Source of the DNA: Acetomicrobium hydrogeniformans ATCC BAA-1850
GTDB lineage: Bacteria > Synergistota > Synergistia > Synergistales > Acetomicrobiaceae
Direction of reading: 5' to 3'
Length of the DNA stretch: 64,000 nt
Assembly (NCBI RefSeq): GCF_000160455.2
Contig: NZ_ACJX03000001.1
Location: 1,312,001-1,376,000 of the forward strand
Below are positions 48,496 through 57,211 of this stretch, piece after piece (the stretch's first letter is position 1; every line of letters begins with the position of its first letter). A program made the translations under genes and the position numbers. A model generated the notes under the pieces. That model searched no databases. It saw only the letters and a list, made by a program, of their open reading frames with translations, and was not told where the DNA came from.

Positions 48496-48524
48496 TTGAC
48501 TTTGTGAAATGATATATATAAAAT
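48496..48524 (+). promoter_or_regulatory. Promoter of the glycine reductase operon
   Basis: TTGACT (48496-48501), exact 17-bp spacer, TAAAAT (48519-48524). Transcription would start near 48531, about 10 nt before the glycine riboswitch. It is the strongest promoter match in the window. Confidence 0.75.
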
Positions 48525-48541: not shown

Positions 48542-48738
48542 CCGGATGAGCACCGCAAGAGATATCTCGCTTGAAGGAAAGCGAGGAGCCGAAGGTGCAA
48601 GGGCAGCGATGCCCCAATCTCTCAGGCAAAAGGATTGCGGTGTGACGGAACCCTGGAAAAGATTTCTTTAGAGATCTACCAAAAGGGCAAGCCATATGAT
48701 TGCTTATGGTGAATCCCTGGGGGTGAAGAGGACAGGGG
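48542..48738 (+). ncRNA. Tandem glycine riboswitch
   Basis: Two glycine aptamers in series. Aptamer 1: P1 CACCGCAA (48551-48558) with TTGCGGTG (48635-48642), conserved GCCGAAGGTGCAA (48588-48600) and AATCTCTCAGGCAAAAGGA (48616-48634). Aptamer 2: P1 CCCTG (48651-48655) with CAGGG (48733-48737), and ACCAAAAGGGCAA (48678-48690). The leader CCGGATGAG (48542-48550) and linker TGACGG (48643-48648) can form the known leader-linker kink-turn (CCG/CGG stem plus tandem GA). Directly after aptamer 2 a 7-bp hairpin (48738-48744 with 48758-48764) holds the grdX Shine-Dalgarno GAGGAGGG in its loop, suggesting translational control by glycine. Whether glycine turns the operon on is inference. Confidence 0.92.
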
Positions 48739-48766
48739 CCAAATGGACCGAGGAGGGATTTGGCGC

Positions 48767-49189
48767 ATGTCCTTTTTTTATGAAGTTGTAACGAACAATC
48801 CTCGACTGAAGCACATCGCAGGATGCGTATATCTAGAAGGCTGTCCTTTAGATGTGTTGGCGATGTTGCGCGATAAGGTCCATGACGGATATAGGCTTAT
48901 CTCCCATCCTCTGACGGGAAATATCCCTCCGGGAAGAAGGCTTTATTTAACTGTGCTTCTGGCCAGTTCCACATCTGACGATGATTTCGTCGATCAGGAA
49001 TCTCTTAATTTAATCGAAAGAGCCCTCGAAATTTACGAAAGGGTAGATCGTAATCATATCGATTTGGATCCAAGTTCGATAGAGGATATGCAATTCCTCG
49101 ACGAACAGCTCATGATGCCGGTGTTTTATCAATATGGAATCTTATCAATAGGGAGGTGCACTGAAATTGATCGAATTGAACAAGGATAA
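48767..49189 (+). CDS. grdX: GrdX family protein
   Basis: A 140-aa protein at the head of the glycine reductase operon. It shows the GrdX N-terminus YEVVTNNPRL and PLTGNIPPGRR. Function is unknown, but the family is found with grd operons. ATG 48767 is 9 nt after GAGGAGGG (48750-48757); an in-frame ATG at 48743 lies inside the riboswitch hairpin. It overlaps trxA by 23 nt. Confidence 0.8.
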   Translation: MSFFYEVVTNNPRLKHIAGCVYLEGCPLDVLAMLRDKVHDGYRLISHPLTGNIPPGRRLYLTVLLASSTSDDDFVDQESLNLIERALEIYERVDRNHIDLDPSSIEDMQFLDEQLMMPVFYQYGILSIGRCTEIDRIEQG

Positions 49190-49523: not shown

Positions 49524-50816
49524 TTGGTGAGGTTGGAATTGCATAAAGTTAAGATCGAGGATGTGCAATGGGGCGATGCCACCAAGGTCGAAAATAACGT
49601 CCTTTACATCAACCGCGAAGAAGTTACAGATATGCTGCTAGAGGATGATCGCTTTGAGTCCGTAGAGGTGGATTTAGCTCGTCCCGGAGAAAGGGTTCGC
49701 ATTATCCCGGTCAAAGACGTGATAGAGCCCAGGTGCAAGATCGAGGGCGAAGGCGACGTCTTTCCAGGTTTCATCGGCGATGTCGAGGGTAACGTAGGGA
49801 GGGGCAAGACATTAGTGTTGTCAGGTTCCGCAGTTGTGACCTGCGGCAAGATAGTCGGTTTCCAGGAAGGGATTATAGATATGTCGGGTCCCGGTGCCGA
49901 TTACACGCCCTTCTCCAAGACCAATAACGTGGTCTTGGTCCTGACGCCCAAGGAAGGTATTGAAAGGCACGATTATGAGGCGGCATGTCGCGTGGCCGGG
50001 CTCAAGGTCGCGCACTTTTTGGCGGTGAATGCGAAGGGAACGTCGCCCGACGAAGTATCGCTTTACGAATTAGGGGAGATGACGAAAAGGCCCAAGGAGC
50101 TCGAGAGTTTGCCTAAGGTAGCATATCTTTACATGTTGCAGTCCCAGGGTCTTCTTCACGATACCTACGTATATGGAGTCGACGCGAAGAGGATACTTCC
50201 AACGCTAATTCATCCTAATGAGGTCTTCGATGGGGCTATCGTGTCGGGCAACTGCGTATCCGCCTGCGATAAGAATAGCACCTATGTACATCAAAATAAT
50301 CCTGTAATAGAAGCCCTCTACAAGAGGCATGGCAGAGACATTGATTTCGTAGGTTGCATAATTACCAACGAGAACGTGACGCTCGAAGATAAGAAGAGAA
50401 GCTCTTCCTATGCAGTCAAGCTTGCCAAGATGCTTGGAGTTGACGGGTTGATAATTACGGAAGAAGGTTTCGGAAATCCCGATACTGACTTGATCATGAA
50501 CTGCAGAAAGGCGGAGCGTGCGGGTATAAAGACGGTGCTCATTACCGACGAATATGCCGGAAGGGACGGAGTCAGCCAATCCCTCGCCGATGCGGCCCCT
50601 GAAGCGAACGCCGTCGTAAGCGCCGGAAACGCAAACCCGACGGTCCAATTGCCCCCTATGGAAAAACTGATAGGCTTTTCTGAATCAGCCAATGTCATAG
50701 CGGGAGGTTTTTCCGGAAGCTTAAAGGAAGATGGTTCCATCGAAGTTGAGTTGCAGGCAATAACGGGTGCCACCAACGAGCTTGGTTTCACCTGTTTGTC
50801 TGCCGAAACCAGATAA
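49524..50816 (+). CDS. grdE: Glycine reductase component B, alpha/beta subunit precursor GrdE
   Basis: Proprotein of 430 aa that cleaves itself to leave a cysteine-derived pyruvoyl group, which binds the amino group of glycine. The cleavage site is in SGNCVSACDKNST, at residues N243-C244 when counted from TTG 49524. GTG 49527 is an alternative start. AAGGGGG lies about 12 nt upstream. It precedes grdA by 26 nt. Confidence 0.93.
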   Translation: MVRLELHKVKIEDVQWGDATKVENNVLYINREEVTDMLLEDDRFESVEVDLARPGERVRIIPVKDVIEPRCKIEGEGDVFPGFIGDVEGNVGRGKTLVLSGSAVVTCGKIVGFQEGIIDMSGPGADYTPFSKTNNVVLVLTPKEGIERHDYEAACRVAGLKVAHFLAVNAKGTSPDEVSLYELGEMTKRPKELESLPKVAYLYMLQSQGLLHDTYVYGVDAKRILPTLIHPNEVFDGAIVSGNCVSACDKNSTYVHQNNPVIEALYKRHGRDIDFVGCIITNENVTLEDKKRSSSYAVKLAKMLGVDGLIITEEGFGNPDTDLIMNCRKAERAGIKTVLITDEYAGRDGVSQSLADAAPEANAVVSAGNANPTVQLPPMEKLIGFSESANVIAGGFSGSLKEDGSIEVELQAITGATNELGFTCLSAETR

Positions 50817-50842: not shown

Positions 50843-51325
50843 ATGGCAAAGGGGAAATTGGTCGGTAAAAAGCTGATACTCCTTGGCGAACGGGATGGAA
50901 TTCCCGGTCCCGTGATGGAGGCCTGTTTAAAGGACAGCGGAGCCGATATAGTGTTTTCCGTGACCGAATGCTTCGTCTGAACGGCCGCGGGAGCCATGGA
51001 CCTGCAGAATCAACAGCGCGTCAAGGACGCAGCCGAGAAATTCGGTGCTGAAAACGTCGTAGTAATACTGGGCAGCTCCGATGCAGAGGGCGCAGAAATT
51101 TACGCCGAAACCGTTACAAACGGAGATCCGACTTACGCAGGTCCATTGGCAGGAGTCCCGTTGGGACTCGCAGTTTATCACATGTTTGAACCGGAGATAA
51201 AAGAGGAAGTGGATCCCGCTGTTTGGGAAGAGCAAATGGGAATGATGGAGATGGTTTTGGATCCTGAGGCCCTATCTCAAGCGGTAGCTAAAATGCGAGA
51301 GCAATGCAGCAAGTATACTCTCTAG
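50843..51325 (+). CDS. grdA: Glycine reductase selenoprotein A (GrdA) with in-frame UGA = Sec
   Basis: A 160-residue selenoprotein that receives the carboxymethyl group from protein B and passes it to protein C. The TGA at 50978-50980 is in frame and is codon 46, in TECFV-U-TAAGAMD; the flanks match the conserved Grd[13 protein letters not shown] signature. The rest ([33 protein letters not shown]) continues uninterrupted to TAG 51323-51325. ATG 50843 follows AGGAGGTG. Naive callers split it at the TGA. A weak stem-loop (50987-50991 with 51001-51005) lies downstream of the UGA. Confidence 0.95.
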
Positions 51326-51356
51326 GGTTGCGATGAGAGATGGGGAGGGATTATTT

Positions 51357-52664
51357 GTGGCTTATAGGGTAGTGCACTATATAAATCAATTTTTCGCCGG
51401 CATAGGTGGCGAGGAAAGGGCGGATTATCCGCCGGAGCTTCGTGATGGCGTGGTAGGCCCTGGGCAGGCCTTGCAGGCAGCCTTTGAAAAAGAGGCTACT
51501 ATAGTGGCGACGGTAATTTGCGGTGACGGCTATTTCGCCGAACAAATGGATGAGGCTATAAACAAAATTATCGAGATGCTCAAGGAATACAAACCCGATG
51601 CCCTCGTTGCGGGGCCGGCTTTTAACGCGGGACGATACGGCATGGCCTGTGGCGCCATATGCGATGCCGTCGGTAAAAGGCTTGGCATACCCGTCGTTAC
51701 TGCCATGTATCGGGAAAATCCCGCTGTCGAGATTTACAAAAAAGGCATTTACATAATCGAAGCGGCGGATAGCGCCAGAGGAATGCGCGATGCCATACCT
51801 AAAATGGCCCGCCTCGTTTTGAAGCAATTGAAGGGAGAAACTATTGGGAGCCCTAAAGAAGAGGGCTACATAGAGCGTGGCGTCAGGGTAAACGTATTCA
51901 GAGATCGAATTGGAGCCGAGAGGGCAGTCGATATGCTCGTGAAAAAGCTTCGCGGCGAGGAGTTTGTCTCAGAATATCCCATGCCATCCTTCGATCGTGT
52001 GCCGCCCGCTCCTGCTATAAAAGACATAAAGAAAGCCAAAATTGCCCTTGTTACTTCAGGAGGCATAGTTCCCAAGGACAACCCCGACAGGATAGAAGCT
52101 TCAAGCGCCACTAAGTTCGGGGAATATAGCATAGCGGGCTTGCAGGACCTCACATCGGAAACGCACGAGACAGCTCACGGAGGTTATGATCCTACCTATG
52201 CAAACGATGACCCCGATAGGGTGTTGCCCGTGGATGTGGCAAGAGAACTGGAAAGGGAGGGCTCCTTTGGCTCGCTTCACGATAAATATTACGCGACCGT
52301 GGGCAACGGAACTCCCGTAGCCTATGCCAAGAGCTTTGGAGAGGAGATTGCCAAGAGGTTGAAAAGCGATAACGTAGATGGCGTCATCCTCACGTCCACC
52401 TGAGGAACCTGTACTCGTTGCGGTGCAACGATGGTAAAGGAATTGGAGAGAGCGGGTTTACCCACCGTGCATATATGTACTATAGTTCCCATATCACAGA
52501 CCGTCGGAGCGAACAGAATAGTTCCGGCCGTTGCAATTCCTCACCCCCTTGGCGATCCGACAAAGTCGCCGGAAGAAGAAAGGGCAATAAGACGCCGCCT
52601 TTTAAACAAAGCATTAAAGGCCTTACAGGTAGATATCAAGGAACAGACCCTTTTTGACGATTAA
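51357..52664 (+). CDS. grdB: Glycine reductase component B, gamma subunit selenoprotein GrdB (UGA = Sec)
   Basis: A 435-residue selenoprotein that, with GrdE, forms the glycine-specific protein B. The start is GTG 51357 with GGGGAGGG 7 nt upstream (N-terminus VVHYINQFFAGIGGEE); ATG 51333 in frame has no site. The TGA at 52401-52403 is codon 349 in ILTST-U-GTCTRCG, the conserved GrdB Sec position, after which the frame runs to TAA 52662-52664 (AVAIPHPLGDP). A 7-bp hairpin with GGT loop (52415-52421 with 52425-52431) 11 nt after the UGA is a good bacterial SECIS candidate. Confidence 0.95.
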
Positions 52665-52714: not shown

Positions 52715-52760
52715 AATTAAATTGGCGGTAATTTCGGACATAAGGAGCGTGCATGATTAC

Positions 52761-54308
52761 ATGCGAAAGGTTGCTATAAAAGAATATGCCTATTGCTTGA
52801 ACCACACCCCCGAACTTGCCTATCACTATGGCAATACCCCCTTTTGGGAAAGGAAGGCCAAAGGAGAATCGGAGTTTCTGCTTTCCCTGTCAAAATCGAT
52901 GCGCCCCTTTGAAGAGGCAGTAAGTTACGCCCCAAACCAAGCCTACATCGGAGGGATTGATCCGGAGGACCTGGAGGCTCAGCCTGTTCCGTGGTACCAA
53001 AATCCGATGAGGGGAGCCTCTCGTTGGGGCCAATTTGGAGAGATAATGCCCGAAGATGAATTTTTGGCCCTTATGGATATTTCCGACGTCTTCGACATCA
53101 TCTGGCTTGAGGAAACCTTTTCGGGAAAGGTCAAGGAAAAGCTCCAAAGCCATCCCTTGATAAATCCCGACATTTTACAGCGTCTGGAAAAGGGTCATCC
53201 CATTGATGCAATAGAGAGGGAAATAAGAGAAAATGAGGCGTTACCATTATATTACGACGGCATAACAGTTGGTTGTTGTAGAAAATCCCATGAATTTGAC
53301 GAATGTCTGTCCTCCTATGTATTGCTCGAGAACATAGCCTGCAAAGCCGGCGGAGTATTGGCTTTGCTCCATCTACTGAAACGTGCGGGCATGAAACCTG
53401 AAGAAGTCGATTTCATCATAGAATGTTCCGAAGAAGCTGCAGGAGACATGAACCAAAGGGGAGGAGGTAATTTCGCTAAATCAGTAGGTGAAATTGCCGG
53501 CTGTATAAATGCAAGCGGGTGTGACGTAAGGGGCTTTTGCGCCGGGCCTGCCTACGCTCTTATCAACGCAGCGGGACAGGTGGCATCCGGTATCAGGAAA
53601 AACGTAGTGGTGTTAGCCGGAGGAGCCGTTCCGAAGCTTTACATGAACGCACGGGATCACGTGAAAAAAAATATCCCGGCATTGGAGGATGTCTTGGGTA
53701 GTTTTGCAGTATTGCTCACTCCCGAAGACGGGGTCTCTCCCGTAATAAGGCTCGATGCAATCGGGAAACATTCCGTTGGGGCCGGGGCCTCTCCCCAAGC
53801 CATAACCGAGGCTCTTGTTTACGAGCCGTTAAAGCGGATCGGGCTTGGCATTGCCGATGTGGATAAATATGCGGCAGAGCTGCAAAACCCCGAGATTACG
53901 CTGCCGGCAGGAGCGGGAAATGTCCCCGAGGCCAATTTCAAGATGATCGCAGCCCTTGCCGTAATGAAGAAGGAGCTCGAAAGAGCCGATATGGCTGATT
54001 TTATAAAGGAACGCGGAATGCCTGGCTTCGCACCAACGCAAGGACATATACCCTCCGGCGTGCCTTTTATAGGGCATGCCTGCGAGAAGATAAAGAAGGG
54101 AACGATGAAGAGGTCGATGATAATAGGAAAGGGAAGCCTCTTTTTGGCACGTTTGACGAACCTATCTGATGGAGCTTCCTTTATCATAGAATCGCCTTCG
54201 CCTCTTGCCGGTGAGGAAAAGACCGTAAGCAAAGAAGCGATAAAGGAGATCATTTTGGAAGTGCTTGCCGATCTCGCCGGTTCGCTTAAAGGTTCTGCCA
54301 AAGAGTAA
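52761..54308 (+). CDS. grdC: Glycine reductase complex component C subunit beta
   Basis: Large subunit of protein C, which converts carboxymethyl-selenoprotein A to acetyl phosphate with thiolase/KAS-III-like chemistry. The protein (515 aa) shows the family sequence YAPNQAYIGG, an ECSEEAAGD motif and GFCAGPAYALINAAGQVASG. ATG 52761 gives the family N-terminus MRKVAIKEYAY, with AAGGAG 13 nt upstream; a TTG at 52722 would overlap the hairpin. Followed 20 nt later by grdD. Confidence 0.92.
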   Translation: MRKVAIKEYAYCLNHTPELAYHYGNTPFWERKAKGESEFLLSLSKSMRPFEEAVSYAPNQAYIGGIDPEDLEAQPVPWYQNPMRGASRWGQFGEIMPEDEFLALMDISDVFDIIWLEETFSGKVKEKLQSHPLINPDILQRLEKGHPIDAIEREIRENEALPLYYDGITVGCCRKSHEFDECLSSYVLLENIACKAGGVLALLHLLKRAGMKPEEVDFIIECSEEAAGDMNQRGGGNFAKSVGEIAGCINASGCDVRGFCAGPAYALINAAGQVASGIRKNVVVLAGGAVPKLYMNARDHVKKNIPALEDVLGSFAVLLTPEDGVSPVIRLDAIGKHSVGAGASPQAITEALVYEPLKRIGLGIADVDKYAAELQNPEITLPAGAGNVPEANFKMIAALAVMKKELERADMADFIKERGMPGFAPTQGHIPSGVPFIGHACEKIKKGTMKRSMIIGKGSLFLARLTNLSDGASFIIESPSPLAGEEKTVSKEAIKEIILEVLADLAGSLKGSAKE

Positions 54309-54328
54309 GGCTTAAGAGGTGAAATGTT

Positions 54329-55486
54329 GTGAGTGATGTCAATTTGAAAAAGTTAATCGGCGAAGCGTTGATTGAAATTGTAGATGCGGCCAAAGGCGGA
54401 GGTAAGTTTGTGCCTATCGGCCTGATGAGCAGCGGAAGCGAGCTTGGTTCCGAAGAGATGGCTTTGGGGGGCAGGCTTGCCCAGCAACAATACCCTTTTA
54501 TAAAAGTGGTTATGATAGGCCCTCGTGTCGAAGGTTTCGACGATTTAGAATGGATTGAGACCGACGATTGCGAGGCAGACATCCAAAATGCAATGGAAAA
54601 AGCTTTAAAAGAGGGTCGTATAAAAGGTGCCGTTGCCCTCCATTATCCCTTTCCTTTGGGCGTCGCTACCGTTGGAATGATACACGCGCCTGCCAAGGGG
54701 AAGCCCCTCATAATATCCACTTCTACGGGGACTTCTTCCGCTAATAGAGTCGAAGCCATGGTGTTGAATGCAATTTATGGTGTAGCAGTTGCCAAAGCCA
54801 GAGGAATCAAGAAGCCGGAAGTTGGCATTTTAAACGTGGATGGGGCGCAAATGGTTTACAGATCTCTCAGAAAATTGGCGGAGGGCGGTTACGATATTAC
54901 CTTTGGAAGCAGCGTAAGGAGTGACGGAGGCCCTATTTTAAGAGGGAACGATTTGATAGCCGGTTCCGTGGATGTATGCGTTACCGATACATTGACGGGG
55001 AATGTCCTGGTCAAGATATTTAGCGCCTACAACACGGGCGGGAATTACGAAGCTTTAGGTTGGGGGTATGGGCCGTCCGTAGGAGAGGGGTGGGGCTATG
55101 TCGTCTCCATCATTTCCAGGGCTTCCGGGGCCCACGTTATCGCAAATGCCATCTACTTTACGGCTGAAGTGTCCTTAGCCGGCCTGCCGTCGCTTGTGAG
55201 GGGCGAACTTGAGAGGGCCAGAAATGCAGGCCTTGAAAGCATTCTCGCCCAACTGGAAAGCAAGGGGGAGGGTGGGAAATCACGGGTGGAGCCGCCCAAA
55301 CCGGAGCCGACAGACGAAGAAATCCACGGTATAGATGTTTTGACGATAGAAGATGCGGTAAAAACTCTTTGGGCGTCAGGAATATATGCCGAATCGGCCA
55401 TGGGATGTACTGGCCCAGTCGTAAAAGTTCCTTCACGCTTTCTCGACAAGGCTAAGGAAGTTTTGGCCGAGGGCGGCTACCTGTAA
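54329..55486 (+). CDS. grdD: Glycine reductase complex component C subunit alpha
   Basis: Small subunit of protein C (385 aa), related to PlsX-like phosphate acyltransferases; it releases the acetyl group as acetyl phosphate. Conserved regions are IGLMSSGSELG, GTSSANRVEAMVLNAIYG and the C-terminal AMGCTGPVVKV with a key cysteine. GTG 54329 follows AGAGGTGAAATG. Last gene of the grd operon, followed by a strong terminator. Confidence 0.92.
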   Translation: MSDVNLKKLIGEALIEIVDAAKGGGKFVPIGLMSSGSELGSEEMALGGRLAQQQYPFIKVVMIGPRVEGFDDLEWIETDDCEADIQNAMEKALKEGRIKGAVALHYPFPLGVATVGMIHAPAKGKPLIISTSTGTSSANRVEAMVLNAIYGVAVAKARGIKKPEVGILNVDGAQMVYRSLRKLAEGGYDITFGSSVRSDGGPILRGNDLIAGSVDVCVTDTLTGNVLVKIFSAYNTGGNYEALGWGYGPSVGEGWGYVVSIISRASGAHVIANAIYFTAEVSLAGLPSLVRGELERARNAGLESILAQLESKGEGGKSRVEPPKPEPTDEEIHGIDVLTIEDAVKTLWASGIYAESAMGCTGPVVKVPSRFLDKAKEVLAEGGYL

Positions 55487-55770: not shown

Positions 55771-55834
55771 AAATGTATGATTGTGCTTTCGTTATTGTCT
55801 TTTAATCATATTTTTGAGGAGGGACAGTGAGAGC

Positions 55835-57211
55835 ATGGATCTTTTGTTGAAAATTAACGGTATGGTAAACGGGATAGTATGGGGACCATGGATGTGTGCC
55901 TTTTTATTAGGCACAGGTGTTTATTTGACTATTATATTGGGCGTACCCCAGATACGTTACTTCACTTTTTCTTTTAAGAATGTATTTACAAAGAGCGCAC
56001 TCAAGGGCTATGGCAAAGAAGGCACCATATCTCCCTTTGCGGCTTTAGCTACGGCATTGGCGGGGACTCTGGGATCTGGGAACATCGCAGGAGCTGCTAC
56101 AGCCATCCATTTAGGAGGACCAGGTGCGGCCTTTTGGATGTGGATAAGTGCACTATTTGGAATGACAACTAAAATGGTCGAGGTTATACTATCAACCCAT
56201 TTTAGAGAAAAAGACGAAGCAGGTAACTGGCGGGGAGGAACAATGTACGTGTTAAGAGCGGCCACGGGACAAAAGTGGCTGGCCTGGCTTTTTGCCCTAT
56301 TTGCGGCACTGGCAGCCTTTGGAATTGGTAACATGACACAGGCCAACTCTACTGCTGAGGCAGTAAATTTAGGTTTTGGCGTCCCACATATATATACTGG
56401 AATAGCGTTGGCTTTTCTAACGGCCCTGGTTATCTTAGGTGGCCTAAAAAGCATAGCTAACGCTACCGTCATCATAATTCCTTTCATGTCCGTGCTATAT
56501 TTTGTTGGTGGTTTAGTCTTGTTTTTAATGAACATGGATAAATTGCCGGCTGCTTTTGGTGCAATATTTTATTATGCCTTCCATGATCCTATGGCAATGC
56601 CAGGTGCCATTGCTGGATGGTCCGTGAGACAGGCATTGATAAAAGGTACCGCCCGAGGCATCTTTTCAAACGAAGCTGGTTTGGGATCGGCCCCGATGGT
56701 TCATTGCACGGCCATAACGGATCATCCCGTGCGTCAAGGCACCATGGGCATTTTTGAGGTGTTTTTGGATACCTTTATAGCATGTACTGTCACAGTTATA
56801 AGCATTATTGCCACAGGTACCCTTACTGGTTATCCGGAACTTACGGGTGCTCAATTGACCTTAACCGCTTTTAGTACCGTTTGGGGTCGCGCGGGCGCAA
56901 TGTTTTTGGCAGTTTCCCTCGCCTGTTTTGCCTATTCGACGGTGCTTGCATGGTACTGGTACGGAGAAACAGGAGCGACTTATATATTGGGAGTGAAGGT
57001 GATTCCCTTCTATAAGGCACTTTGGATCATCTGTATCGTTCTTGGTGCTTGGGGTGGAAGTGAGTTTTTACGGAACATTTGGGACTTTGCCGATACTTTA
57101 AACGGCCTGATGGCTATACCCAACCTTATAGCTTTATGGTGGGTATCGGGAGAGGTTCGCCGTCTGGTCAAGGATTTTGATGCTAAAAGGGCTAGGGGAG
57201 AATTGTTGTAA
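55835..57211 (+). CDS. Sodium:alanine symporter (AGCS family)
   Basis: A 458-aa membrane protein with about 11 helices that imports alanine or glycine with Na+. Family signatures are GTLGSGNIAGAATAIHLGGPGA, FGIGNMTQANS and GIFSNEAGLGSAPM. ATG 55835 follows GAGGAGGGAC; an earlier in-frame ATG-like start at 55781 lacks support. It is followed by alanine racemase and alanine dehydrogenase genes, which supports alanine as substrate; glycine for the nearby grd operon is the alternative. Confidence 0.9.
   Translation: MDLLLKINGMVNGIVWGPWMCAFLLGTGVYLTIILGVPQIRYFTFSFKNVFTKSALKGYGKEGTISPFAALATALAGTLGSGNIAGAATAIHLGGPGAAFWMWISALFGMTTKMVEVILSTHFREKDEAGNWRGGTMYVLRAATGQKWLAWLFALFAALAAFGIGNMTQANSTAEAVNLGFGVPHIYTGIALAFLTALVILGGLKSIANATVIIIPFMSVLYFVGGLVLFLMNMDKLPAAFGAIFYYAFHDPMAMPGAIAGWSVRQALIKGTARGIFSNEAGLGSAPMVHCTAITDHPVRQGTMGIFEVFLDTFIACTVTVISIIATGTLTGYPELTGAQLTLTAFSTVWGRAGAMFLAVSLACFAYSTVLAWYWYGETGATYILGVKVIPFYKALWIICIVLGAWGGSEFLRNIWDFADTLNGLMAIPNLIALWWVSGEVRRLVKDFDAKRARGELL

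Follow-up and report, generated by a model that had tools for sequence, protein, structure and literature searches.

Why glycine riboswitches retain two aptamers has long been debated, and the leader of the glycine reductase (grd) operon of Acetomicrobium hydrogeniformans ATCC BAA-1850 raises the question for a catabolic operon: is its second aptamer a second glycine site, or something else? The leader lies in a 64,000-nucleotide stretch of the genome (the window), where an initial annotation had described a tandem glycine riboswitch with a kink-turn and a hairpin around the Shine-Dalgarno (SD) sequence. Glycine riboswitches upstream of grd have a precedent in Clostridioides difficile, where added glycine raises grd transcription and the element has been suggested to be an ON switch (PMC11477304). 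That riboswitch holds the same position before the glycine reductase operon in another phylum, and our comparison with it concerns this position. We searched 151 Synergistota genomes and read about 105 leaders; a GrdX scan of named genomes gave only two Acetomicrobium MAGs, so the comparison of grdX leaders is one within Synergistota. Our functional statements about the leader are drawn from its sequence.

The genes after the leader run in the order grdX-trxA-grdE-grdA-grdB-grdC/D, and profile matches for GrdX, a GrdE-type subunit, GrdA, GrdB, and component C (Table 1) bear out the annotated glycine reductase operon. GrdB, with its selenocysteine codon read through, is of the glycine type by TIGR01917, and the sarcosine and betaine models stay under their cut-offs. 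The leader (48542-48764) folds with a z-score of -4.24, with 0 of 200 shuffles equally stable, and the congener G085 has an equivalent promoter (TTGACC-17-TAAAAT) just upstream of its own leader. The presence of a glycine riboswitch with a kink-turn upstream of the operon is supported, at the position given in the initial annotation. A genome-wide search with RF00504 gives a single match over the cut-off, before grdX (the second match reaches 18.4 bits), and gcvT of this genome lies elsewhere (G000:C1:781203-782282) with no RF00504 match over the cut-off nearby, so the riboswitch seems to be reserved for glycine reductase. The grd operon is immediately followed by an AGCS amino acid carrier (window positions 55832-57208, 432.8 bits), whose family has frequent links to glycine riboswitches, and perhaps this carrier too is served by the grd leader.

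Table 1. Positions of leader and operon features in the window, with the match or observation behind each.
Feature	Position	Strand	Evidence
Candidate sigma-70 promoter TTGACT-17-TAAAAT	48496..48524	+	10/12 matches; consensus match only
Leader: P0 5' strand CCG and kink-turn GAU-GA	48542..48549	+	
Aptamer 1, canonical glycine aptamer	48546..48647	+	RF00504 63.7 bits, full length; gathering score 32
Aptamer 1 helices	P1 48551-48558/48635-48642; P2 48566-48572/48579-48585; P3 48588-48592/48622-48627	+	
Linker: kink-turn GA and P0 3' strand CGG	48644..48648	+	
Degenerate aptamer 2 (domain 2)	48651..48737	+	No RF00504 match; conserved in 6 congeners
Domain 2 P1 and P2	P1 48651-48655/48733-48737; P2 48660-48666/48671-48677	+	
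Domain 2 P3 and terminal hairpin	P3 48678-48680/48722-48724 and 48685-48687/48715-48717; hairpin 48691-48696/48705-48710	+	
P3 internal loop CAA (48688-48690)/GAAU (48711-48714), presumed A-minor donor to aptamer 1	48688..48714	+	
AAGAGGACA, J3/1 and first bases of the aptamer 2 P1 3' strand; anti-P1 5' arm	48726..48734	+	
Hairpin GCCAAAU/AUUUGGC, 7 bp, 13-nt loop	48738..48764 (arms 48738-48744/48758-48764)	+	
SD GAGGAGGG in hairpin loop, 9 nt upstream of AUG	48750..48757	+	Sequence
grdX, AUG 48767-48769	48767..49189	+	NF038093 GrdX 88.4 bits, cut-off 40
UGUCCUUUU, anti-P1 3' arm, inside grdX codons 1-4	48768..48776	+	
U7 tract directly 3' of GGACA/UGUCC stem, possible intrinsic terminator	48773..48779	+	5/6 congeners; not G085
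grdE-type component B subunit	49524..50816	+	NF040793 625 bits, under its sarcosine cut-off 780
grdA, selenoprotein A, Sec codon at residue 46	50843..51325	+	NF040748 174.6 bits on post-Sec part; frame open with TGA=U
grdB, selenoprotein B, Sec at residue 357	51333..52664	+	TIGR01917 676 bits, cut-off 602
grdB SECIS	52404-52441	+	RF01990 62.6 bits
Component C beta and alpha (grdC, grdD)	52722..55486	+	NF040746 768 bits, NF040747 537 bits, both over cut-off

The first gene of the operon carries an in-frame TGA in 11 relatives (L021, L022, L037, L043, and L058 in f5; L006, L030, and L041 in f8; L040, L051, and L087 in f2-g3). This codon sits shortly past a conserved TNN motif, GrdX homology continues beyond it, and a stable SECIS-like hairpin with a G/U-containing apical loop follows within ~25 nt; in f8 and g3 it falls near a Cys of other GrdX proteins. 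As judged from these sequences, GrdX likely contains selenocysteine in such relatives and would then be an unrecognized selenoprotein; our literature search found no paper describing selenocysteine in GrdX.

The leader begins with a canonical glycine aptamer, and the annotated leader/linker pair can indeed form a kink-turn around it: a 3-bp P0 joins CCG (48542-48544) to CGG (48646-48648), with a bulged GAU loop and tandem GA at 48548-48549 and 48644-48645. P0 is fully paired at 95 of 96 relative loci and in 41 of 41 genera, while 10,000 shuffles among genera give a mean of 22.6 and a maximum of 31; since the model used to find the loci itself contains P0, this count includes a selection bias.

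The second of the two annotated aptamers fares differently. Domain 2 has no RF00504 match at gathering, genome-wide at E <= 1, or when searched alone. The covariance model recovers one aptamer, the very outcome that the initial annotation had named as refuting its proposal, so the simple form of that proposal fails, and we did not file the leader as an ordinary tandem because domain 2 fails the family model. What survives is a conserved, degenerate second aptamer recognized by comparison. Among the six congeners, domain 2 is without an RF00504 match in five (G000, G016, G011, G089, G130) and reaches 39.9 bits in G085, which marks it as a decayed true aptamer. All six keep P1 (CCCUG/CAGGG), P2 with compensatory pairs, RCC/GGU, GGG/CCC, and CAA/GAAU. 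The altered parts are J1/2, the P3 base, and J3/1, which form the ligand core of the family: A replaces the conserved first G of GCCGAAGG in each of the six congeners, CUCUC is changed at its second C, J3/1 is longer by one base, and the 3' core CUCUCAGGCAAAAGGAC has become CCCUGnGGGURAAGAGGAC. The individual pocket bases are those that we take to line the site, and the loss of the pocket is argued from the conserved positions. Across 11 loci that keep P3, from several clades, compensatory changes occur in P1, P2, and P3, with C-G/U-A exchange in P1 among clades, and the internal loop is kept in 11 of 11 segmented loci and 6 of 6 congeners; the pairs were counted on a hand segmentation, which favors the structure (MAFFT misaligned L087 in domain 2). 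Compensated helices together with an altered core suggest that the scaffold is under selection and the pocket is not, and from its sequence domain 2 looks like a pocketless scaffold rather than a second glycine site.

We also weighed two readings in which domain 2 does bind a ligand. A full tandem, with both aptamers binding glycine and the second merely divergent past the reach of the Rfam model, could draw on the retention of P1, P2, and P3, on strong conservation in the genus, and on the G085 copy that passes the RF00504 threshold; we nevertheless consider it improbable, given that the model is silent on domain 2 in five of six congeners and on domain 2 alone, that the changes fall where the family is most conserved, and that the same region decays in other clades keeping P3. 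Less probable again, in our judgment very much so, is the idea that domain 2 has been retuned as a variant aptamer for some other ligand, which would make the leader a two-input gate. The altered core is conserved in the genus rather than drifting, and glycine-rejecting variants of glycine aptamers are known (review, PMC9481103), but the other clades with a decayed core have no common new core, and a docking role already accounts for the conservation. The best joint model of the leader is RF03166, the glycine-GGAnGA variant, because it covers P0 and aptamer 1 together with a reduced aptamer 2; at 81.3 bits the match is below the gathering score of 110, a cut-off passed in 0 of 151 Synergistota genomes, and we rejected filing under this family. 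Domain 2 searched alone against RF03166 gives only 12.8 bits.

How a pocketless domain could still serve is suggested by known structures and mutants. In cryo-EM, Apt-II P3 adenines contact Apt-I P1 and Apt-I P3 adenines lie in Apt-II P1 (PMC12060979), and by analogy with this Vibrio cholerae structure we presume that the domain 2 P3 loop contacts aptamer 1. In Bacillus subtilis, mutation of the aptamer 2 pocket left regulation intact, while mutations in aptamer 1 and the kink-turn impaired or abolished it (Babina et al., PMC5666159). Crum et al. proposed a decay of tandems to singlets, in which context decides the surviving aptamer and type 1 is typical of glycine cleavage (PMC6944388). The Acetomicrobium leader fits and extends this picture from Crum et al. 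and Babina et al. With tandem RF00504 pairs (B. subtilis gcvT, V. cholerae) it has in common aptamer 1, the kink-turn, the P1/P2/P3 layout of domain 2, and a switching P1 before a single platform; it differs in that domain 2 has lost conserved pocket positions and that the OFF stem lies over the start codon rather than forming a stand-alone leader terminator. With type-1 singlets carrying a 3' ghost aptamer, as these are represented in papers citing the original description (Ruff 2016, cited in PMC6944388 and PMC9481103), it shares one scoring aptamer and a non-scoring 3' partner with conserved P1 (CCCUG/CAGGG). The partner here differs in keeping P2, P3, and the A-rich internal loop of P3, and with them a potential reciprocal docking contact that most ghosts of the phylum lack. 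We read domain 2 as a docking-only second aptamer, by its sequence an intermediate between intact tandems and singlets with a ghost aptamer.

Relatives in the phylum show three states: intact tandem, pocketless second aptamer, and ghost-aptamer singlet. Intact tandems occur at L003 and in genus g42 (before gcvT) and at L118 and L119. A P3 with GGCAA or AGCAA...AAU but a broken core is found in the window's genus, f6, f2-g3/g12, and f9-g35, and in most grdX leaders the second aptamer is a bare ghost of P1 plus a hairpin. Two further loci, L102 (G006) and L104 (G092), have a lone 3'-side glycine aptamer with no aptamer 1 before it and resemble type-2 singlets. L115 (G151) is a second glycine riboswitch, combining a ghost aptamer with a terminator-like stem, and the start of the gene after it reads like a putative lipoate-protein ligase. 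At nearly all loci, the base that aptamer 1 brings to the inter-aptamer contact varies with the state of domain 2, being U if P3 is kept and A if the ghost is bare; the correspondence is perfect in the 55 loci of the GrdX tree (15 + 40), and the exceptions are L060 and L115. On the tree, only three changes are needed and a sign test is not significant; with these results and the exceptions we did not count the pattern as independent coevolution, and because the pattern is phylogenetically clustered it is only suggestive.

The initial annotation also proposed where the leader switches, namely at a 7-bp hairpin whose fold ligand binding could shift. This hairpin does present the grdX SD in its loop and does border aptamer 2 P1 (48737/48738), but it has no base in common with P1 and forms in both computed folds. 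Its arms are nearly invariant in the six congeners and its loop varies. Being compatible with both folds and having arms that hardly vary, it is probably not the switch, and we rejected it as the candidate. Its opening or closing by glycine through competition with P1 has in its favor the exact junction with P1 and the SD in the loop, yet near-constant arms give no covariation support whereas a competing helix is supported across genera, and we rate the idea as highly implausible.

That competing helix, which we call anti-P1, pairs 48726-48734 with 48768-48776, encloses the SD hairpin, covers the grdX AUG, and overlaps the P1 3' strand at 48733-48734. Each of its pairs has a probability of 0.92 or more when the 3' half is folded alone, and unconstrained folding reaches its minimum with the anti-P1 helix (-51.0 versus -41.4 kcal/mol with P1 forced). 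In a permutation among 42 genera, the mean helix score is 16.2 against 13.5 permuted (z = 7; 0/10,000), and against each leader's own downstream windows as a composition control the Wilcoxon p is 5e-10, with no control window as good in the window's genus. An earlier test that placed the partner region by reading frame ranked the helix weakly (median rank 0.25); the fixed-distance test was adopted afterwards, so some choice of method enters its z-score, and the second control was added. Both strands vary by clade and still match (GCGACAG/CUGUCGC in f3, ACGACAG/CUGUCGU in f4, CCGGAC/GUCCGG in f6, GAAGACA/UGUCUUC in g26), and a G-U pair is replaced by G-C in G085. The helix is weak or absent in g5, g39, g25, g47, and g9, which indicates that other platforms exist. 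From these comparisons, competition between P1 of domain 2 and the anti-P1 helix is likely the better-supported switch, giving the leader, as in tandems, a single expression platform governed by aptamer 2 P1.

We consider it fairly likely, on the sequence evidence, that glycine turns this riboswitch on through a single working site. Sequence and statistics show aptamer 1, the kink-turn, the retained helices of domain 2, and the cross-genus anti-P1 complementarity; glycine binding, docking, loss of the second site, the direction of switching, and the choice between translation and termination are inferred from them. Aptamer 1 would bind glycine, and the kink-turn and the domain 2 scaffold (P1 as receptor, the A-rich P3 loop as donor) would let it dock; docking would stabilize aptamer 2 P1, leaving the grdX AUG single-stranded and the operon translated. 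Without glycine, the anti-P1 arms would pair and extend the SD hairpin to a long stem burying the start codon. Activation by glycine is the expected direction by analogy with C. difficile (PMC11477304), and the feed-forward design suggested initially, induction by the substrate, is plausible. Against the one-site reading, the computed gap of ~10 kcal/mol favoring the OFF fold is large; the ON fold would need glycine, the tertiary contacts of docking, and the order of co-transcriptional folding to offset it, and the OFF 3' arm is made ~30 nt after P1 closes. More tentatively, and leaning slightly toward doubt, we propose that selection has kept domain 2 as a pocketless docking module, a stable tandem-to-singlet intermediate, in which the reciprocal contacts are kept, the aptamer 1 contact base coevolves, and the freed core strand is reused over the grdX start codon.

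Transcription may also end at the OFF stem, which is followed by U7 in most congeners. The same one-site switch acting mainly through termination rather than a translation block is possible but, in our view, rather unlikely. Five of six congeners have U7 after the GGACA/UGUCC stem, 19% of loci have a stretch of at least 6 T near the switch versus 1.3% of downstream control windows, and in gcvT-linked and trxA-first relatives the same strand forms clear, ordinary terminators with a U tract before the gene. At two such loci, L125 (G157) and L139 (G164), trxA follows the leader without grdX and the anti-P1 stem takes this form. The OFF stem here goes uncalled in a terminator scan, whose loop limit of 8 is below the 13-nt loop of the stem. 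On the other side, many genera have the helix over the start codon and no U tract, and UUU UUU UAU encodes Phe-Phe-Tyr, TTT being the commoner Phe codon (69% in window genes). G085 keeps the helix without the U tract, which favors translation as the shared mode.

New here are a putative docking-only second aptamer set in a natural series and a start-codon anti-P1 helix across much of the phylum. Before catabolic operons, Synergistota offer a series that runs from intact tandems (gcvT) through pocketless second aptamers with a docking domain to bare ghosts, and these natural sequences let the contribution of docking be told apart from that of a second ligand. For much of the phylum, they also predict the strand by which grd operons are switched on.
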